The notes under the pieces: generated by a model
What the model saw: the letters and a program-made list of their open reading frames with translations, nothing else
Databases searched by the model: none
What the model was told of the DNA's origin: nothing
In this document: piece by piece, positions 45,573 to 50,699 of the stretch
How the letters are laid out: every line of letters begins with the position of its first letter
Numbering within the stretch: position 1 is the stretch's first letter
NCBI RefSeq assembly: GCF_900143055.1
Contig: NZ_FRCW01000010.1
Span: 1 to 64,000, forward strand
Reading direction: 5' to 3'
Source: Fibrobacter sp. UWR3
GTDB taxonomy: Bacteria > Fibrobacterota > Fibrobacteria > Fibrobacterales > Fibrobacteraceae
DNA length: 64,000 bases
Position numbers and translations under genes: made by a program

Positions 45573-46214
45573 TTATTCGAGACAGAATTTCCAAATTGGA
45601 ATCACATTAATGCCATCTTCTAAAACAGTTTCCGAATTCCATGTAACAATGCAACAATTTTTCACTTTAATTTCTTCTTTCGCCAAACGAATCGCGTTTA
45701 TCTCTCTTTTGAACGTGTCCAATTGCTCCATATCCCAAGCAACTTGAACGAGTCGTCTAGACTTCGTATCGAGATTCGTAACAAGGAAATCGACTTCGCC
45801 TCCATTGCGATTGATATAATATTCAATTTTATTATTCCCCCGCCGGAAGTGCAGAAAAACCAGGTTCTCCAGAAGCCACCCTTTTTCAGCATCATTCTTT
45901 GGAGTCATTGCACGAACAACCCCGGTATCAACCATATAATATTTATCAGGATTTGTTCTACGCACCGAAACGGAATCAGTCCTTAAAGATACTGGATAAA
46001 TCAAGTACGCGTCGGCCAAATAACGGAGATAATTGGAAATATATTCTCGATTGTCCGAAATCCCCATCGCCTTCAATGTACCAGAGATAGCACGAGTCGA
46101 AATTTTTCGCGCGTAATTATGGACAACATAATCTAAAGTATACCGTAGCGCAGGTACACTTGAAACTTCAATATATATAAAATTGGCATAAAAATCAAGC
46201 CAATTTCACAAGAA
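45573..46214 (-). pseudogene. 5'-truncated AAA/DUF4143 ATPase gene
   Basis: The minus-strand frame is open from 46214 and shows only the C-terminal part of the DUF4143 family: VPALRYTLDYVVHNYARKIS, then YISNYLRYLADAYLIYPVSL, WLLENLVFLHFRRG and the nuclease-like GGEVDFLVTN with a later VQVAWD. The whole N-terminal ATPase domain is missing, and the frame begins without a start signal beside the terminator hairpin of the next gene. The first ATG (46076) would give 167 residues starting mid-domain. It is AT-rich. A full-length relative lies at 24898-26265, but the two are not close copies. Confidence 0.75.
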
Positions 46215-46220
46215 ATTGGC
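46190..46220 (-). terminator. Terminator of the nucleotidyltransferase gene
   Basis: GCCAATTTC pairs with GAAATTGGC around a 4-base loop, followed on the minus strand by TTGATTTTTA. Confidence 0.7.
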
Positions 46221-46237: not shown

Positions 46238-47407
46238 TTATTTATGACGCTTTTTATACAGGCGGAAGGCCAGGATGCGCTGTGGCGTCAGGAACACGAA
46301 CGAAGCCCAGTAGCGCAGCAGGAACCACGAGACTTCCGGGAAATCGAACGGGAGGAATGTGACCAGACGGAGGCGGTTTTTGAGCCACCAGCGCCAAACA
46401 GAGCCGCGGCGACGATCCGCAAATTTCCCGAAGTTGCCGTCGCGCATGATTTCGCGAAGGAGAATGCGCCCGCGGCGGGCATCAGGCGGGCAAAGCAGGT
46501 ATTGCGATTCCAGACCGAGGTATTCCGAAAGCGCCCACATGAGGGCACCCGCAATGCGGTTCAGGCCAAGCGACTCTAGGCGGGCAGCAACATCCGCGCG
46601 TTCACCATCAGAACTGGCCCGGAGTAACACGCAGTAATCCATCACCTGGCGCAGGCCCACCCCGAGCCCCAACAGGTGCTTGTATATGTGCGAGAGCTGC
46701 ATGACCAGCGCGAATTTGTTCGAAGGAACGTAGAAACTCGGCGCATCTTTAGTGTCGCCCGCAGGAACAAGATGCGAGGCAGGCAGTTCCGCGTTCAAGA
46801 AACGCTGCAAGCGGCTGTTTGCAAAAGGACTGCAGCGGTCAACCCCGAACCCGAAATGAACCTCTACCTCTTCCCCCAAAACCTTCTTGGAAAACAGAAC
46901 GTCGTGGTTAGAGATTCGAGCCCTTTCCAACAAATTCAACTTCTGAAGAACGCTTAAAACGTGGTCGCGACCTTCCCCCACCCAGATGTCGATATCCCCC
47001 GTCTGGCGTATAAACTTGTCCGGATAAAGCAGGGAATTCGCCTGCCCCTTGAGAATAAGCGTCTGGCAACCCTCTGCCGCAAACTTCTGCGTCAGTTCAC
47101 CCGAGCACGCATAATGCCGCTCGTTTAACGACCGGATACCCTCCGCCTGGTAGAACCACTTGAGGTAAAGCTGGTGCGGCACCCCAAGCATTTCGGGCTT
47201 CCCCGACGAAAGCGAATTGATAGCACTGAACGCGACCCCAAGAACGGACTGCCTGCCGCATTGCCTGTAGAGCCACTCCCAGTCCTCAGCAGAAACATCG
47301 CCCGCCCCAAAAACAGGAAACTCCCGCGAAGCCCCTAAGGCATATCGCAGGAGTGCAAAAAGGAGGTCAACACGCCTCGCAACAACTTTATACGTGACGG
47401 TTTGCAC
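46238..47407 (-). CDS. Nucleotidyltransferase-fold protein (PF14907-like)
   Basis: A 389-residue soluble protein. The central segment LILKGQANSLLYPDKFIRQT followed by GDIDIWVGEG (about 133-142) is the G-x-DxD core of the nucleotidyltransferase fold found in the 'uncharacterised nucleotidyltransferase' family. A later Asp-bearing strand is EVEVHFGFGVD. Such proteins occur in polysaccharide and peptide-modification loci; substrate unknown. The start is GTG 47407, which lies 20 bases inside the end of the small peptide gene, so translation is probably coupled. The C-terminus is very basic and aromatic (FRLYKKRHK). Confidence 0.8.
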   Translation of the reverse strand: MQTVTYKVVARRVDLLFALLRYALGASREFPVFGAGDVSAEDWEWLYRQCGRQSVLGVAFSAINSLSSGKPEMLGVPHQLYLKWFYQAEGIRSLNERHYACSGELTQKFAAEGCQTLILKGQANSLLYPDKFIRQTGDIDIWVGEGRDHVLSVLQKLNLLERARISNHDVLFSKKVLGEEVEVHFGFGVDRCSPFANSRLQRFLNAELPASHLVPAGDTKDAPSFYVPSNKFALVMQLSHIYKHLLGLGVGLRQVMDYCVLLRASSDGERADVAARLESLGLNRIAGALMWALSEYLGLESQYLLCPPDARRGRILLREIMRDGNFGKFADRRRGSVWRWWLKNRLRLVTFLPFDFPEVSWFLLRYWASFVFLTPQRILAFRLYKKRHK

Positions 47408-47555
47408 CTTCGTTCAAGTTGAAACCGAGTTCGTCATCGTATTCGTCTGCATCGGGGCCATCGCCGGAGCCGGCAAGCAGATACATTTCACCGCGCATAT
47501 CAATGAAACTGAGCTTCGGAGCAACGTATTCTTTCTTTTCAAACTTCAAATTCAT
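47388..47555 (-). CDS. 55-residue acidic peptide, candidate precursor or regulator
   Basis: ATG at 47553-47555 follows AGGGG at a suitable distance, nine bases after the previous gene. The peptide begins MNLKFEKKEYVAPKLSFIDM, continues through RGEMYLLAGSGDGP and ends in an Asp/Glu-rich tail. It resembles in layout the many short Bacteroidetes peptides of the type K-x-Y-x-x-P-x-L...M...LLAxSG, whose function is not settled. A Gly-Ser-Gly stretch followed by an acidic tail would also fit a leader-core precursor. Its 3' end overlaps the nucleotidyltransferase gene by 20 bases. No homologous search was possible. Confidence 0.6.
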   Translation of the reverse strand: MNLKFEKKEYVAPKLSFIDMRGEMYLLAGSGDGPDADEYDDELGFNLNEGANRHV

Positions 47556-47564
47556 ATCAACCCC

Positions 47565-48500
47565 TTACTTAATTACAACCTTCTTGCCGTTATTGAAGTA
47601 CGTACCCTTGATGGTCGGCTTCTTGTCGAGCTTGCGGCCCTTCATGTCGTACCAGCCGGTCGCCGTTGAGAACTCACCCGTGCGTGGGTTCAGCATGTAA
47701 ATTGCAGTTGTCCCTTCTTCGTCATGAAAAACCACCTCGATGGACGAAGGTAAGTCTTCTTCAATAGCAGCGATTGTTGCGTTGGCACCAGCCTTGGTCA
47801 ACGCATTGCTTTTGTTATAAACCAAGTAGCCACGGAACGGACGAATGTAAGCGCCTTCCTTGACTTTCACGAACTGGCCCTGCTGAATTTGCTTGCCGTC
47901 AACTTCCTTTGCCTTCGCAGCAAAGCCGTAAACACGACCAATGTCAGGGTCGCCCTCTTCCCAAGTTTTATAGGAATACATGCCCCGGAATTCCCAATTG
48001 TCAAACTTAAACTTGGTATCGGCACCTACGGTTTTCTTCATCGTGGTCTTGCCCGCACACCAAGCAGGGAAAATAACCTGATTTTTGTTAGGGCGGACAA
48101 AATAAGGCCTGTTTGCGGAAAATTCACCATTACTGCCCATTTGCTTCGCGTCAATTTGCCAGGTTTCTGAAGTTCCGTTAATCGCGATTCCAGTCATTTC
48201 GTAAATCTGGCCAAATTCAGAAAGACAGCCACTTGGGAAATCAAACGGCAGCATCAAGGTGCCAGGCTTGCCCCACTCACCAGAATAGTCGCGATCGTAG
48301 TAGATGGAGTCCACCTCGACATCTTCCGAAATTTCAACCGTTTCTGTCGAAGTACCGCTAATGAGAGCGGTCTTCTTACCATTAAGCATCTTGACGGTAA
48401 TAGCACCGTATTCGCCAAGTATGGAGCCCTCTTCTTGGGCAAAAGCACCCATGAAGGCGACAGATAGCGTCAAAACGGCCATTTTTTTGAAAATTTTCAT
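47565..48500 (-). CDS. Secreted protein with C-terminal sorting-like tail
   Basis: A 311-residue product with signal peptide VLTLSVAFMGAFAQEE. The mature part is beta-rich and aromatic with a central FPSGCLSEFGQIYEM segment. The C-terminus GWYDMKGRKLDKKPTIKGTY with final NGKKVVIK closely resembles the tails of Prevotella and Fibrobacter surface proteins (x-DMxGRKL...KGxYxxNGKKxxxK). It lies between wzc and the peptide gene on one strand with short gaps, so it may be a structural part of the capsule or a co-expressed surface protein. Function unknown. Confidence 0.8.
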   Translation of the reverse strand: MKIFKKMAVLTLSVAFMGAFAQEEGSILGEYGAITVKMLNGKKTALISGTSTETVEISEDVEVDSIYYDRDYSGEWGKPGTLMLPFDFPSGCLSEFGQIYEMTGIAINGTSETWQIDAKQMGSNGEFSANRPYFVRPNKNQVIFPAWCAGKTTMKKTVGADTKFKFDNWEFRGMYSYKTWEEGDPDIGRVYGFAAKAKEVDGKQIQQGQFVKVKEGAYIRPFRGYLVYNKSNALTKAGANATIAAIEEDLPSSIEVVFHDEEGTTAIYMLNPRTGEFSTATGWYDMKGRKLDKKPTIKGTYFNNGKKVVIK

Positions 48501-48563
48501 ATTAAACCTATAGATTTTAGGCCAAATATAGAAAAAAGTAAGAATAATGTAAAGTGTTGATTA

Positions 48564-50699
48564 TCACGACTTTTTGCCATAATAGCCCTTGTCATAGTAG
48601 CCGTAGCCATAATGGCCCGGTTCACGCTCGCAATGATTCATCACGATGGCAGCAGGCTTGTCAGAATAACGCTTGACTCGTTCAACGGTTTCCTTGATTT
48701 CTTCCATGCTGTGGCGACCATAGTGGAGCACAAACAAAGAGTAATCGACCAGCGGGCAAATGAGTTCGGCGTCGGTCACCAAGTTCAGCGGCGGAGTATC
48801 TACAATTACCATGTCAAACTTTTCGCGAGCCTCCTTGAGAAGTTTGTCCATGGCGTCACCACGTAACAACTCGCAGGCAGCAAGTTTCGTCTTGCCGGCA
48901 TTCATTACGCACAAATTATCAACATGTTTTTGTGAAACAGCTGTGTCAAGAGTCGCAATTCCCGCCAAAACATCAGCAAGTCCAAACTTTGAGCGTCCGT
49001 GAATTACACCTCGGCGCATATCTGCATCTATTAACAGTACCTTCTTGCCACTCGCCGCAATCGTCGCCGCCAGGTTCAGCGAAACAAAGCTTTTGCCCAC
49101 ACCAGGAATCAAGCCCATCACCAGAACAACGCTATGCTCAGGATTCGGCATCAAGAACATCAAGGCTGTCTGCAGCGAGCGGAAAGATTCACTTACTTTA
49201 TCTTCAGCATTTTGGAGCACGAACGGAGCCCCGTGGTGTAAATGCTTATGGCCACGCAGCAACTTATGCGTTGACTGAGGAATCTTTGCAAACACGCTGA
49301 GACCTGTTTCGCGCTCGATTTCGGAAGCACTCTTGGCGCCATTCCTAAGAATATACATCAAGAACACGAATAAAACTCCGAATATGAATCCAAACACAAC
49401 AGAAGCCATCAAAATACGGGATTTATTCGGCTTTGTTTGACTTTGCTCTACCTGCGCAAAATCCACTATGCGCACATTACCCACCTCGCCCGCACGCACC
49501 ACGCGCAACTGCTGGATATTGTTGAGCATGTTGGTATAGACTTCATTGTTGACAGCAACTTCCTCTTGCAGCCGCTTCACCTCTTGCTGTGTCAGCGGCA
49601 TTTTCTCAGCATTTTTCTTAAGCGCAGCCAATTCTGCACGCAACTTATTCTGCTGCTTAACAATCGTCTGCACATTCGGGTGTTCCGCCTTGAACAAACG
49701 AAGGGCAGACTGACGTTCCTGCTCTAACTGCATAATTTGACGCTGCAGTTGCCCTTCCTTGTCCAAATGAGCCTTGGTTTCACCACTTATGTCAACGGAT
49801 CCTACCTTATAGCGGTAATCGGCCAAAATCTTCTCGGCGCTATCAAGTTTCGCCTTGACCCCCGGCAACTGGCCTTCAAGGAACTCCAAAGTCTTTTCGG
49901 CTTCGGCACTGCGCATTTCCACATTCTGCCGTAAGTATGTTTTCGCAATTGTATTCAAGATTGAGGCCGCACGATCTGGATGGCGATGACTGTAGCGGAC
50001 AGAAATGATGCCAGTCTGTTTTCCCTTTTCCATGACATTCAATCCAGCTGCCAAAGCACGTTCGGCCTTCAAAGGAGTTCCGCGCACCAAGGCAAACTTC
50101 TGCCCCTTGCGAGCATCCATAAAATTCACACGAATAGCAAGAGTGTCACCCGCATATTCCTTAAAAGCAACCTCTCCAACAACGCCATCTAAGACATTTT
50201 TTTCGTCCGAAGAAACCACGGAATAGGCGCTATCGCTTTTGGCAACAGCCATCCACTTTTTCGCACGAACTTTTTCGGGGATTCGCAAGGAATCGACATC
50301 CATGCGGCCTTCCTTATGTGTAAGTCTGTCCCAAAAACCGATTGGAACCGTCCATACATAAAGATGCTCTTTCGCAACGACATCACTTAAAACCATTCGG
50401 CTCTTGATAAGCTCAATTTCTGCATCAGCAGGGCTTGCCAAATCTAGGACAGCCCCCATTTCGCCAAGAGCCTTTGTAGATTTACTGCTGGTTCCCTTGA
50501 CATTCACCTGCAACAGGACATCGCTCGTAAACAGCGGACGAACCCACATGGCATAAGTGGCGCCAAGCATTGCAGCAACAATGACAAACAGCGCAACCAG
50601 GAACTTTTTTTTCCAAAGAAGCAGGGCAAATTCAACTATGGTTAATGAATTTCCTAATGACGATATTTTTTTCGTATTCTCATTCATATTTTGAAACAT
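48564..50699 (-). CDS. wzc: Wzc-like polysaccharide co-polymerase and tyrosine autokinase
   Basis: A 711-residue inner-membrane protein that sets chain length and export of capsule or exopolysaccharide. First membrane helix at about 30-50, a periplasmic Wzz/GNVR region with coiled coil, and a second helix near 450. The cytoplasmic BY-kinase has Walker A MGLIPGVGKSFVSLNLA (about 528), Walker A' LLIDADMRRGV and Walker B VIVDTPPLN. The tail GHYGYGYYDKGYYGKKS carries six Tyr for autophosphorylation. No separate phosphatase gene is seen. ATG 50687 is an alternative start. Promoter proposed at 50760-50787. Confidence 0.93.
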   Translation of the reverse strand: MFQNMNENTKKISSLGNSLTIVEFALLLWKKKFLVALFVIVAAMLGATYAMWVRPLFTSDVLLQVNVKGTSSKSTKALGEMGAVLDLASPADAEIELIKSRMVLSDVVAKEHLYVWTVPIGFWDRLTHKEGRMDVDSLRIPEKVRAKKWMAVAKSDSAYSVVSSDEKNVLDGVVGEVAFKEYAGDTLAIRVNFMDARKGQKFALVRGTPLKAERALAAGLNVMEKGKQTGIISVRYSHRHPDRAASILNTIAKTYLRQNVEMRSAEAEKTLEFLEGQLPGVKAKLDSAEKILADYRYKVGSVDISGETKAHLDKEGQLQRQIMQLEQERQSALRLFKAEHPNVQTIVKQQNKLRAELAALKKNAEKMPLTQQEVKRLQEEVAVNNEVYTNMLNNIQQLRVVRAGEVGNVRIVDFAQVEQSQTKPNKSRILMASVVFGFIFGVLFVFLMYILRNGAKSASEIERETGLSVFAKIPQSTHKLLRGHKHLHHGAPFVLQNAEDKVSESFRSLQTALMFLMPNPEHSVVLVMGLIPGVGKSFVSLNLAATIAASGKKVLLIDADMRRGVIHGRSKFGLADVLAGIATLDTAVSQKHVDNLCVMNAGKTKLAACELLRGDAMDKLLKEAREKFDMVIVDTPPLNLVTDAELICPLVDYSLFVLHYGRHSMEEIKETVERVKRYSDKPAAIVMNHCEREPGHYGYGYYDKGYYGKKS

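Follow-up and report, generated by a model that had tools for sequence, protein, structure and literature searches.

The locus and its three-gene unit

We analysed a stretch of 64,000 nt from Fibrobacter sp. UWR3 (contig NZ_FRCW01000010.1, positions 1-64,000; hereafter the window). It carries a polysaccharide locus with genes for Wzc, a flippase, GT2 proteins, Wzy_C and a sugar transferase, which bears out the capsule setting named in the original prediction. Within this locus lie the genes for an exported protein, a short acidic peptide and a nucleotidyltransferase (Table 1). The peptide gene starts with ATG, is preceded by AGGGG about 6-11 bases upstream, and begins 9 bases after the stop codon of the signal-peptide-bearing 311-aa protein. 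The nucleotidyltransferase frame opens at GTG 47407, and it therefore overlaps the peptide gene by 20 bases; no later start codon was seen between this GTG and the PF14907 domain, and the same 20-base overlap is present in two other genomes (G082 and G068). The layout first proposed, namely a 55-codon gene with a ribosome site, placed 9 bases behind a secreted-protein gene and running 20 bases into a nucleotidyltransferase gene, was confirmed. A promoter-like site precedes the exported-protein gene and a hairpin follows the nucleotidyltransferase gene, so that the three genes may form an operon of their own behind Wzc. Note that both kinds of feature come from consensus matching only, with 8 sigma-70-like sites observed against 5.5 expected in the region, and 11 terminator-like hairpins against 6.1 expected.

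Table 1. Features of the three-gene unit and its immediate surroundings in the window
Feature	Position	Strand	Remarks
Terminator-like hairpin	46199..46220	-	Directly 3' of the nucleotidyltransferase gene; consensus matching only
PF14907 (NTP_transf_5) nucleotidyltransferase, 389 aa	46238..47407	-	GTG start within the peptide gene; E = 7.6e-34
55-aa acidic peptide gene EYDDELGFNLNEGANRHV	47388..47555	-	Leader KKEYVAPKL (YxxPxL); LLAGSG with conserved Ser; acidic tail
Exported protein, 311 aa	47565..48500	-	Signal peptide; C-terminal tail WYDMKGRKLDKKPTIKGTYFNNGKKVVIK (short type-IX-CTD-like)
C-terminal tail of the 311-aa exported protein	47568..47681	-	Motifs W[FY]D[LM]xGR / KGTYY / GKKVxxK; E 2.4e-21
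Sigma-70-like site TTTACA-17-TATATT	48525..48553	-	Immediately 5' of the exported-protein gene; weak evidence
Wzc-type tyrosine autokinase	48564..50699	-	Kept upstream neighbour at orthologous loci; context only

The order Wzc, secreted protein, peptide and nucleotidyltransferase is kept in five other species (G082, G034, G079, G071 and G068), and this recurrence places the arrangement beyond chance. About 1.4 kb separates Wzc from the secreted-protein gene in G079 and G071, and in G080, a sixth genome, the gene order differs. When the peptide frames of 6 species were compared, dN/dS was 0.08-0.22 in 9 of the 15 species pairs, dS being saturated in the other 6. Both ends of the peptide are kept among orthologues (KKxYxAP...LLxxSG and, in part, EYDDEFGFNLNxG), and at orthologous loci, where the flanking genes stay, the peptide frame has stayed as well. 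That the 55-aa frame is a real gene under purifying selection is thus well supported. Searches of Pfam and NCBIfam with the window's peptide gave no match at E <= 1.

A peptide family and its RRE-kinase-peptidase-exporter module

We built a family profile from 41 peptides chosen by their Y..P motif, and the family was found by profile search in at least 58 of the 61 genomes of the genus, with at least 13 members in the richest genome; one Bacteroidota genome gave at least 31 matches. The family motif reads K-K-x-Y-x-x-P-x-[M/L/I]...L-L-x-x-S. Specifically, among 105 unique peptides from the fetched loci, for which Y..P served as selection criterion, Lys stands at position -3 from the Tyr in 94% and at -2 in 89%, M, L or I at +5 in 99%, Leu at +16 in 88% and Ser at +20 in 82%. 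The leader accordingly has the lasso-type YxxPxL form, its Y..P part having entered through selection. When the Y..P filter was left out, 1 of 207 matching ORFs lacked Y..P, and that ORF was a start-truncated frame. Conservation of a Gly-Ser-Gly site had been suggested for the peptide; it held for the Ser, while the flanking Gly residues were conserved in part only (+19 in 36% and +21 in 28% of the 105 peptides).

The window's own genome has three family peptides, namely the window's and two others before a second PF14907 gene. Peptides are often paired, the first ending mostly in P or D and the last, beside the nucleotidyltransferase, mostly in A or V (32 of 45 last peptides have an A/V C-terminus vs 4 of 37 first peptides). 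At ten loci (L181, L182, L190, L192, L195, L197, L201, L204, L208 and L214) each operon holds two or three dissimilar peptides, the first frequently with DVIIxxP or D at its end and the last with an FGLAPxxxDHLA-like motif there, a two-peptide-like design. When three plasmid-collection records were searched for the peptide, one weak match was found, in Prevotella oral taxon 299 (NC_022111). There (L175, ~1480-1677) the order is reversed: the KKQQYLAPTIAVF...LLAAS peptide precedes a surface-protein gene, whose product looks fimbrillin-like.

A PqqD protein (PF05402), placed by this match with RRE/B1 proteins, is present as one strong copy in 56 of the 61 genomes, and peptide, PqqD/RRE and PF14907 are all present in 54 of the 61 among the matches listed. 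None of the three was found in G001 and G014; weak peptide matches were scored absent in G001 (best E 0.096) and G063 (0.78). Peptide and PqqD co-occur with a Fisher p of 0.0026 over the 61 genomes, by a test that ignores kinship. PqqD was present with no peptide match by profile search in G032 and G062, and peptides were present with no PqqD found in G018 (90% complete) and G064 (71% complete). The G032 proteins (L126/L067) belong to a different, shorter HprK-like and PqqD type, possibly an acquired variant, that stands there with no Fibrobacter-type peptide.

In many genomes these genes form an operon of peptide(s), nucleotidyltransferase, HprK-like kinase, S24/S26 peptidase, PqqD and ABC exporter. 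The order from nucleotidyltransferase to ABC exporter was seen in 18 of 20 regions, a count that is not a rate because the regions were picked for PqqD-PF14907 proximity. A scan of public genomes with an HprK-like profile returned 48 loci, 37 from Fibrobacter(ales) and 11 from Bacteroidota; HprK, S24, PqqD and ABC genes followed in this order in 23 of the former and 7 of the latter, and PF14907 adjoined the kinase gene in 30 of the 37 Fibrobacter(ales) loci. A short precursor with a conserved leader is thus found beside RRE and tailoring enzymes, as in RRE-dependent RiPP systems. In the window's own genome, the module stands alone on contig C8 (~149-152 kb), so that it would act on the window's peptide in trans.

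The predicted PqqD structure (mean pLDDT 83.7) runs strand-strand-strand-helix-helix-helix, the order expected of an RRE. Its best PDB matches were TbiB1 with the TbiA leader (5v1u and 5v1v, E from 6.0e-5) and leader-bound TfuB1 (6jx3). By sequence, the protein resembles solved lasso RREs weakly (6jx3, E 0.017). In the HprK-like proteins, H133, G148, G151, G153, K154, S155, D173 and D174 are invariant; the H, GxxGxGKS and DD residues agree by eye with those listed for the peptide kinase BsfK (PMC10368454). The Pfam HPr kinase model reached the HprK-like protein at E 0.014 only, which is below the model's cut-off. Altogether, the genomic link between the peptide family and the RRE-kinase-peptidase-exporter module is well supported.

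The window's nucleotidyltransferase belongs to PF14907 by family match and intact catalytic motif, and it keeps all residues that are invariant in 62 relatives (LKGxAN, GDID, ExH, QxxH and DY). Its model (mean pLDDT 92.5) resembled MenT1, MenT3 and ANT(2'')-Ia in Foldseek, and FKRP more weakly; a sequence search for solved relatives gave none that was useful. Among the matches listed, a PF14907 gene lies within 600 bp downstream of 54 of 150 peptides and upstream of 0 of 150, which shows that the peptide/nucleotidyltransferase pair recurs in other genomes well beyond chance; seen from the enzyme, 64 of 106 PF14907 genes lack a listed peptide in the 1.5 kb before them. Given this linkage and the presence of PF14907 in the RRE/kinase/peptidase/exporter operons, it is well supported that the peptide is a substrate of a modification system. 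The original prediction had proposed the nucleotidyltransferase itself as the modifier; this enzyme is neither the only nor a constant partner, because most listed peptides have none beside them. The other role proposed at first, regulation of the enzyme by the peptide, gained no support.

The exported tail protein as the constant neighbour

The constant neighbour of the peptide is the upstream exported tail protein, not the nucleotidyltransferase. A same-strand ORF of at least 150 aa lies within 450 bp upstream of 97 of 101 peptides, and in 72 of the 101 the upstream protein ends in the strict tail W[FY]D[LM]xGR...KGTYYxNGKKVxxK, with several others showing a looser form. A tail-profile search gave 33 matches in 11 Fibrobacter genomes, of which 3 had no locus and 30 were inspected; 27 of these 30 tail genes are followed by a peptide. 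Of the three exceptions, one is a tail in G029, and the other two are the single weak matches of G001 and G014, genomes that lack both PqqD and PF14907. The same search found no tail match in G069, where peptide, PqqD and PF14907 are present. The window's own genome has two tail proteins, each followed by a peptide. In Bacteroidota, among the matches listed, 58 of 91 peptides lie within 250 bp after a tail and 0 in the reverse order, and 58 of 148 tails have such a peptide. The link between peptide and tail protein, which the first reading of the window had missed, is the tightest one at the locus, and its gene order in two phyla supports the idea that the two may work together.

As for the nature of the tail, its C-terminal motifs agree by eye with motifs B, D and E as described for short type IX C-terminal signals (PMC11969387), and type IX secretion has been suggested for F. 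succinogenes S85 (PMC6851124). The TIGR04183 model of the type IX tail matched neither the window's exported protein (E <= 1) nor the other tail proteins (E <= 0.1). Three large tail proteins (L034:6553-9657, L148:102-3185 and L186:465-3959) contain Listeria-Bacteroides repeats, and two of the three also GLUG motifs, as in adhesin-like surface proteins. In the papers searched, we found no description of the peptide/tail-protein pairing, none on PF14907 and, judged by title, none treating the set of precursor peptide, PqqD, HPr kinase and S24 peptidase. Papers that combine PqqD, HPr kinase and nucleotidyltransferase concerned lasso peptides or Paenibacillus, and those found on short type IX signals did not include PqqD.

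Proposed pathway, alternatives and related systems

We consider it likely that the 55-aa ORF is the precursor of an RRE-guided, modified and exported peptide, RiPP-like and not lasso, that shares one operon with a surface-exported partner; this tiny acidic protein is probably modified and exported by dedicated machinery. Partner protein, peptide and nucleotidyltransferase, whose genes stand in this order, would be translated from one short mRNA. The K-K-x-Y-x-x-P-x-L leader would then bind the genome's one PqqD/RRE protein, whose gene stands on contig C8 beside those for the kinase, peptidase and exporter, a step to which motif, fold and co-occurrence point; in lasso peptides, it is through YxxPxL that the leader is bound by the RRE (B1) protein (PMC10368454). 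The HprK-like kinase, with its conserved residues, could phosphorylate the conserved Ser of the LLxGS motif, at +20 from the Tyr, in the manner of BsfK; the target of that kinase is core Ser3, and BsfB1 strongly stimulates it (PMC10368454). At the phospho-Ser, the PF14907 enzyme might add a nucleotide or sugar moiety, by analogy with the lasso nucleotidyltransferase PsmN, which is needed for hexose addition at the phosphorylated Ser of pseudomycoidin (PMC9266682, PMC8498205). The S24/S26-type peptidase would trim the leader and the ABC exporter would move the product out; outside, the peptide would act with the partner encoded beside it, which ends in a tail reminiscent of short type IX signals. 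As to chemistry, phospho-/nucleotidyl- or glyco-modification of the peptide is the best reading, the Ser presumably being modified by the kinase and then by the nucleotidyltransferase.

Several observations count against this explanation. The C-terminus of the peptide (EYDDEFGFNLNxG) is partly conserved among orthologues, unlike hypervariable RiPP cores; the PqqD resembles lasso RREs weakly in sequence, so that its fit to the leader consists of motif and fold; PqqD occurs without peptide (G032/G062) and peptides without PqqD (G018/G064); and for 64 of the 106 listed PF14907 genes, the 1.5 kb upstream contains no listed peptide. The partner protein's TIGR04183 mismatch, and the finding that only 58 of 148 listed Bacteroidota tails come with a peptide, weigh on the same side.

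The peptide could instead be an ordinary RiPP-type modified signal or antimicrobial, placed behind surface-protein genes through co-regulated operons only. An RRE, a kinase, a peptidase and an ABC exporter are what one expects of a RiPP system, and the dissimilar peptide pairs recall two-peptide systems, but the pairing with one C-terminal tail is near-exclusive in Fibrobacter (27 of 30) and has the same order in another phylum, and orthologues keep their C-termini instead of diversifying them; we regard this alternative as unlikely. A bolder form of the preferred explanation makes the modified peptide indispensable for the maturation or anchoring of short-CTD surface cargo. The ABC transporter would export the peptide separately, and the tail of the protein from the preceding gene would hold it or be joined to it, with phospho-sugar-decorated peptides tailoring the surface in Fibrobacterota and Bacteroidota; this we put forward as speculation that is quite unlikely to hold. 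That the peptide is an unmodified small partner (a chaperone, adaptor or regulator) of the nucleotidyltransferase or the exported protein would suit the conservation of both its ends within orthologues and its overlap or tight spacing with both neighbours. Such a role does not account for the Y-x-x-P-x-[ML] leader, nor for the co-occurrence of the peptide with PqqD, kinase and exporter; most peptides have no adjoining nucleotidyltransferase, and we give it a slim chance. A toxin-antitoxin-like pair of a MenT/AbiEii-type nucleotidyltransferase toxin and a peptide antidote, raised by the fold match to MenT1, MenT3 and ANT(2'')-Ia, was rejected as very improbable on gene context, given that the enzyme is a PF14907 member with relatives in kinase-PqqD-peptidase-exporter operons and that the peptide family mostly occurs without it.

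Fibrobacter and Prevotella-like genomes are rich in short K-x-Y-x-x-P peptides, of which the window's member found no match among named families. These peptides are now tied to one machinery (RRE, kinase, peptidase, exporter and sometimes nucleotidyltransferase) and one class of surface protein, and a formerly unexplained gene family is thereby open to direct tests. RRE-guided modification would give this large family of small peptides a testable role, and, if the pairing is functional, peptide modification would be tied to surface protein display in major fibre-degrading gut bacteria.

Among known systems, the lasso pathways of paeninodin, pseudomycoidin (PsmK/PsmN) and BsfA/BsfK/BsfB1 share a YxxPxL-type leader, a separate PqqD-type RRE, an HprK-like kinase, a nucleotidyltransferase and an ABC exporter with the Fibrobacter system. 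Counted from the same Tyr, the conserved Ser of the Fibrobacter family would be residue 4 of a lasso core, next after the Ser3 given for BsfA. A lasso peptide was nevertheless rejected as the product, because the lasso-specific B2 cysteine protease (PF13471) was found in 0 of the 61 genus genomes. No Asn-synthetase-like macrolactam cyclase was noticed in the inspected Fibrobacter and Bacteroidota operons. The Fibrobacter system has an S24/S26-type peptidase instead of B2, and many peptide copies, encoded behind genes for surface proteins, for a single machinery in trans.

The SynChlorMet cassette, whose kinase-like protein ScmC provided a model match for the HprK-like protein (TIGR04249, E 5.9e-5), likewise combines HprK-like, PqqD and S24-like peptidase genes. 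Genus Fibrobacter differs from such HprK-PqqD-radical SAM-S24 clusters in having the PF14907 nucleotidyltransferase instead, and no radical SAM enzyme was noticed in the genus Fibrobacter operons inspected. Other Fibrobacterota families (L156-L171, e.g. L163, L165 and L168) have a cluster of HprK-like, PqqD, radical-SAM-like (CNxxCxYCY) and S24-like genes, the radical SAM name being our reading of the CxxxCxxC motif; no Fibrobacter-type peptide was noticed at these clusters.

The Butyrivibrio fibrisolvens plasmid pNP243 (NZ_CP146964) shares the PF14907 enzyme, ABC genes, HprK-like, PqqD and S24/S26 peptidase, together with a 57-aa peptide beginning MKKAYVKPELK; that peptide is Cys-rich, no tail protein was noted there, and the host is a Firmicutes. 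The plasmid stretch (L174, 108-8751) also carries GT2 and two-component genes. Finally, the short type IX C-terminal signals of Prevotella intermedia (PMC11969387) share with the tail a C-terminal position, Y/D..G..[RK], GxY and a closing basic motif. Signal peptides are common to that cargo and to the tail proteins, the count for the latter being crude, with many frames truncated. The window's system differs in that its protein has no TIGR04183 match and in its companion peptides, which the available text of that paper does not mention.
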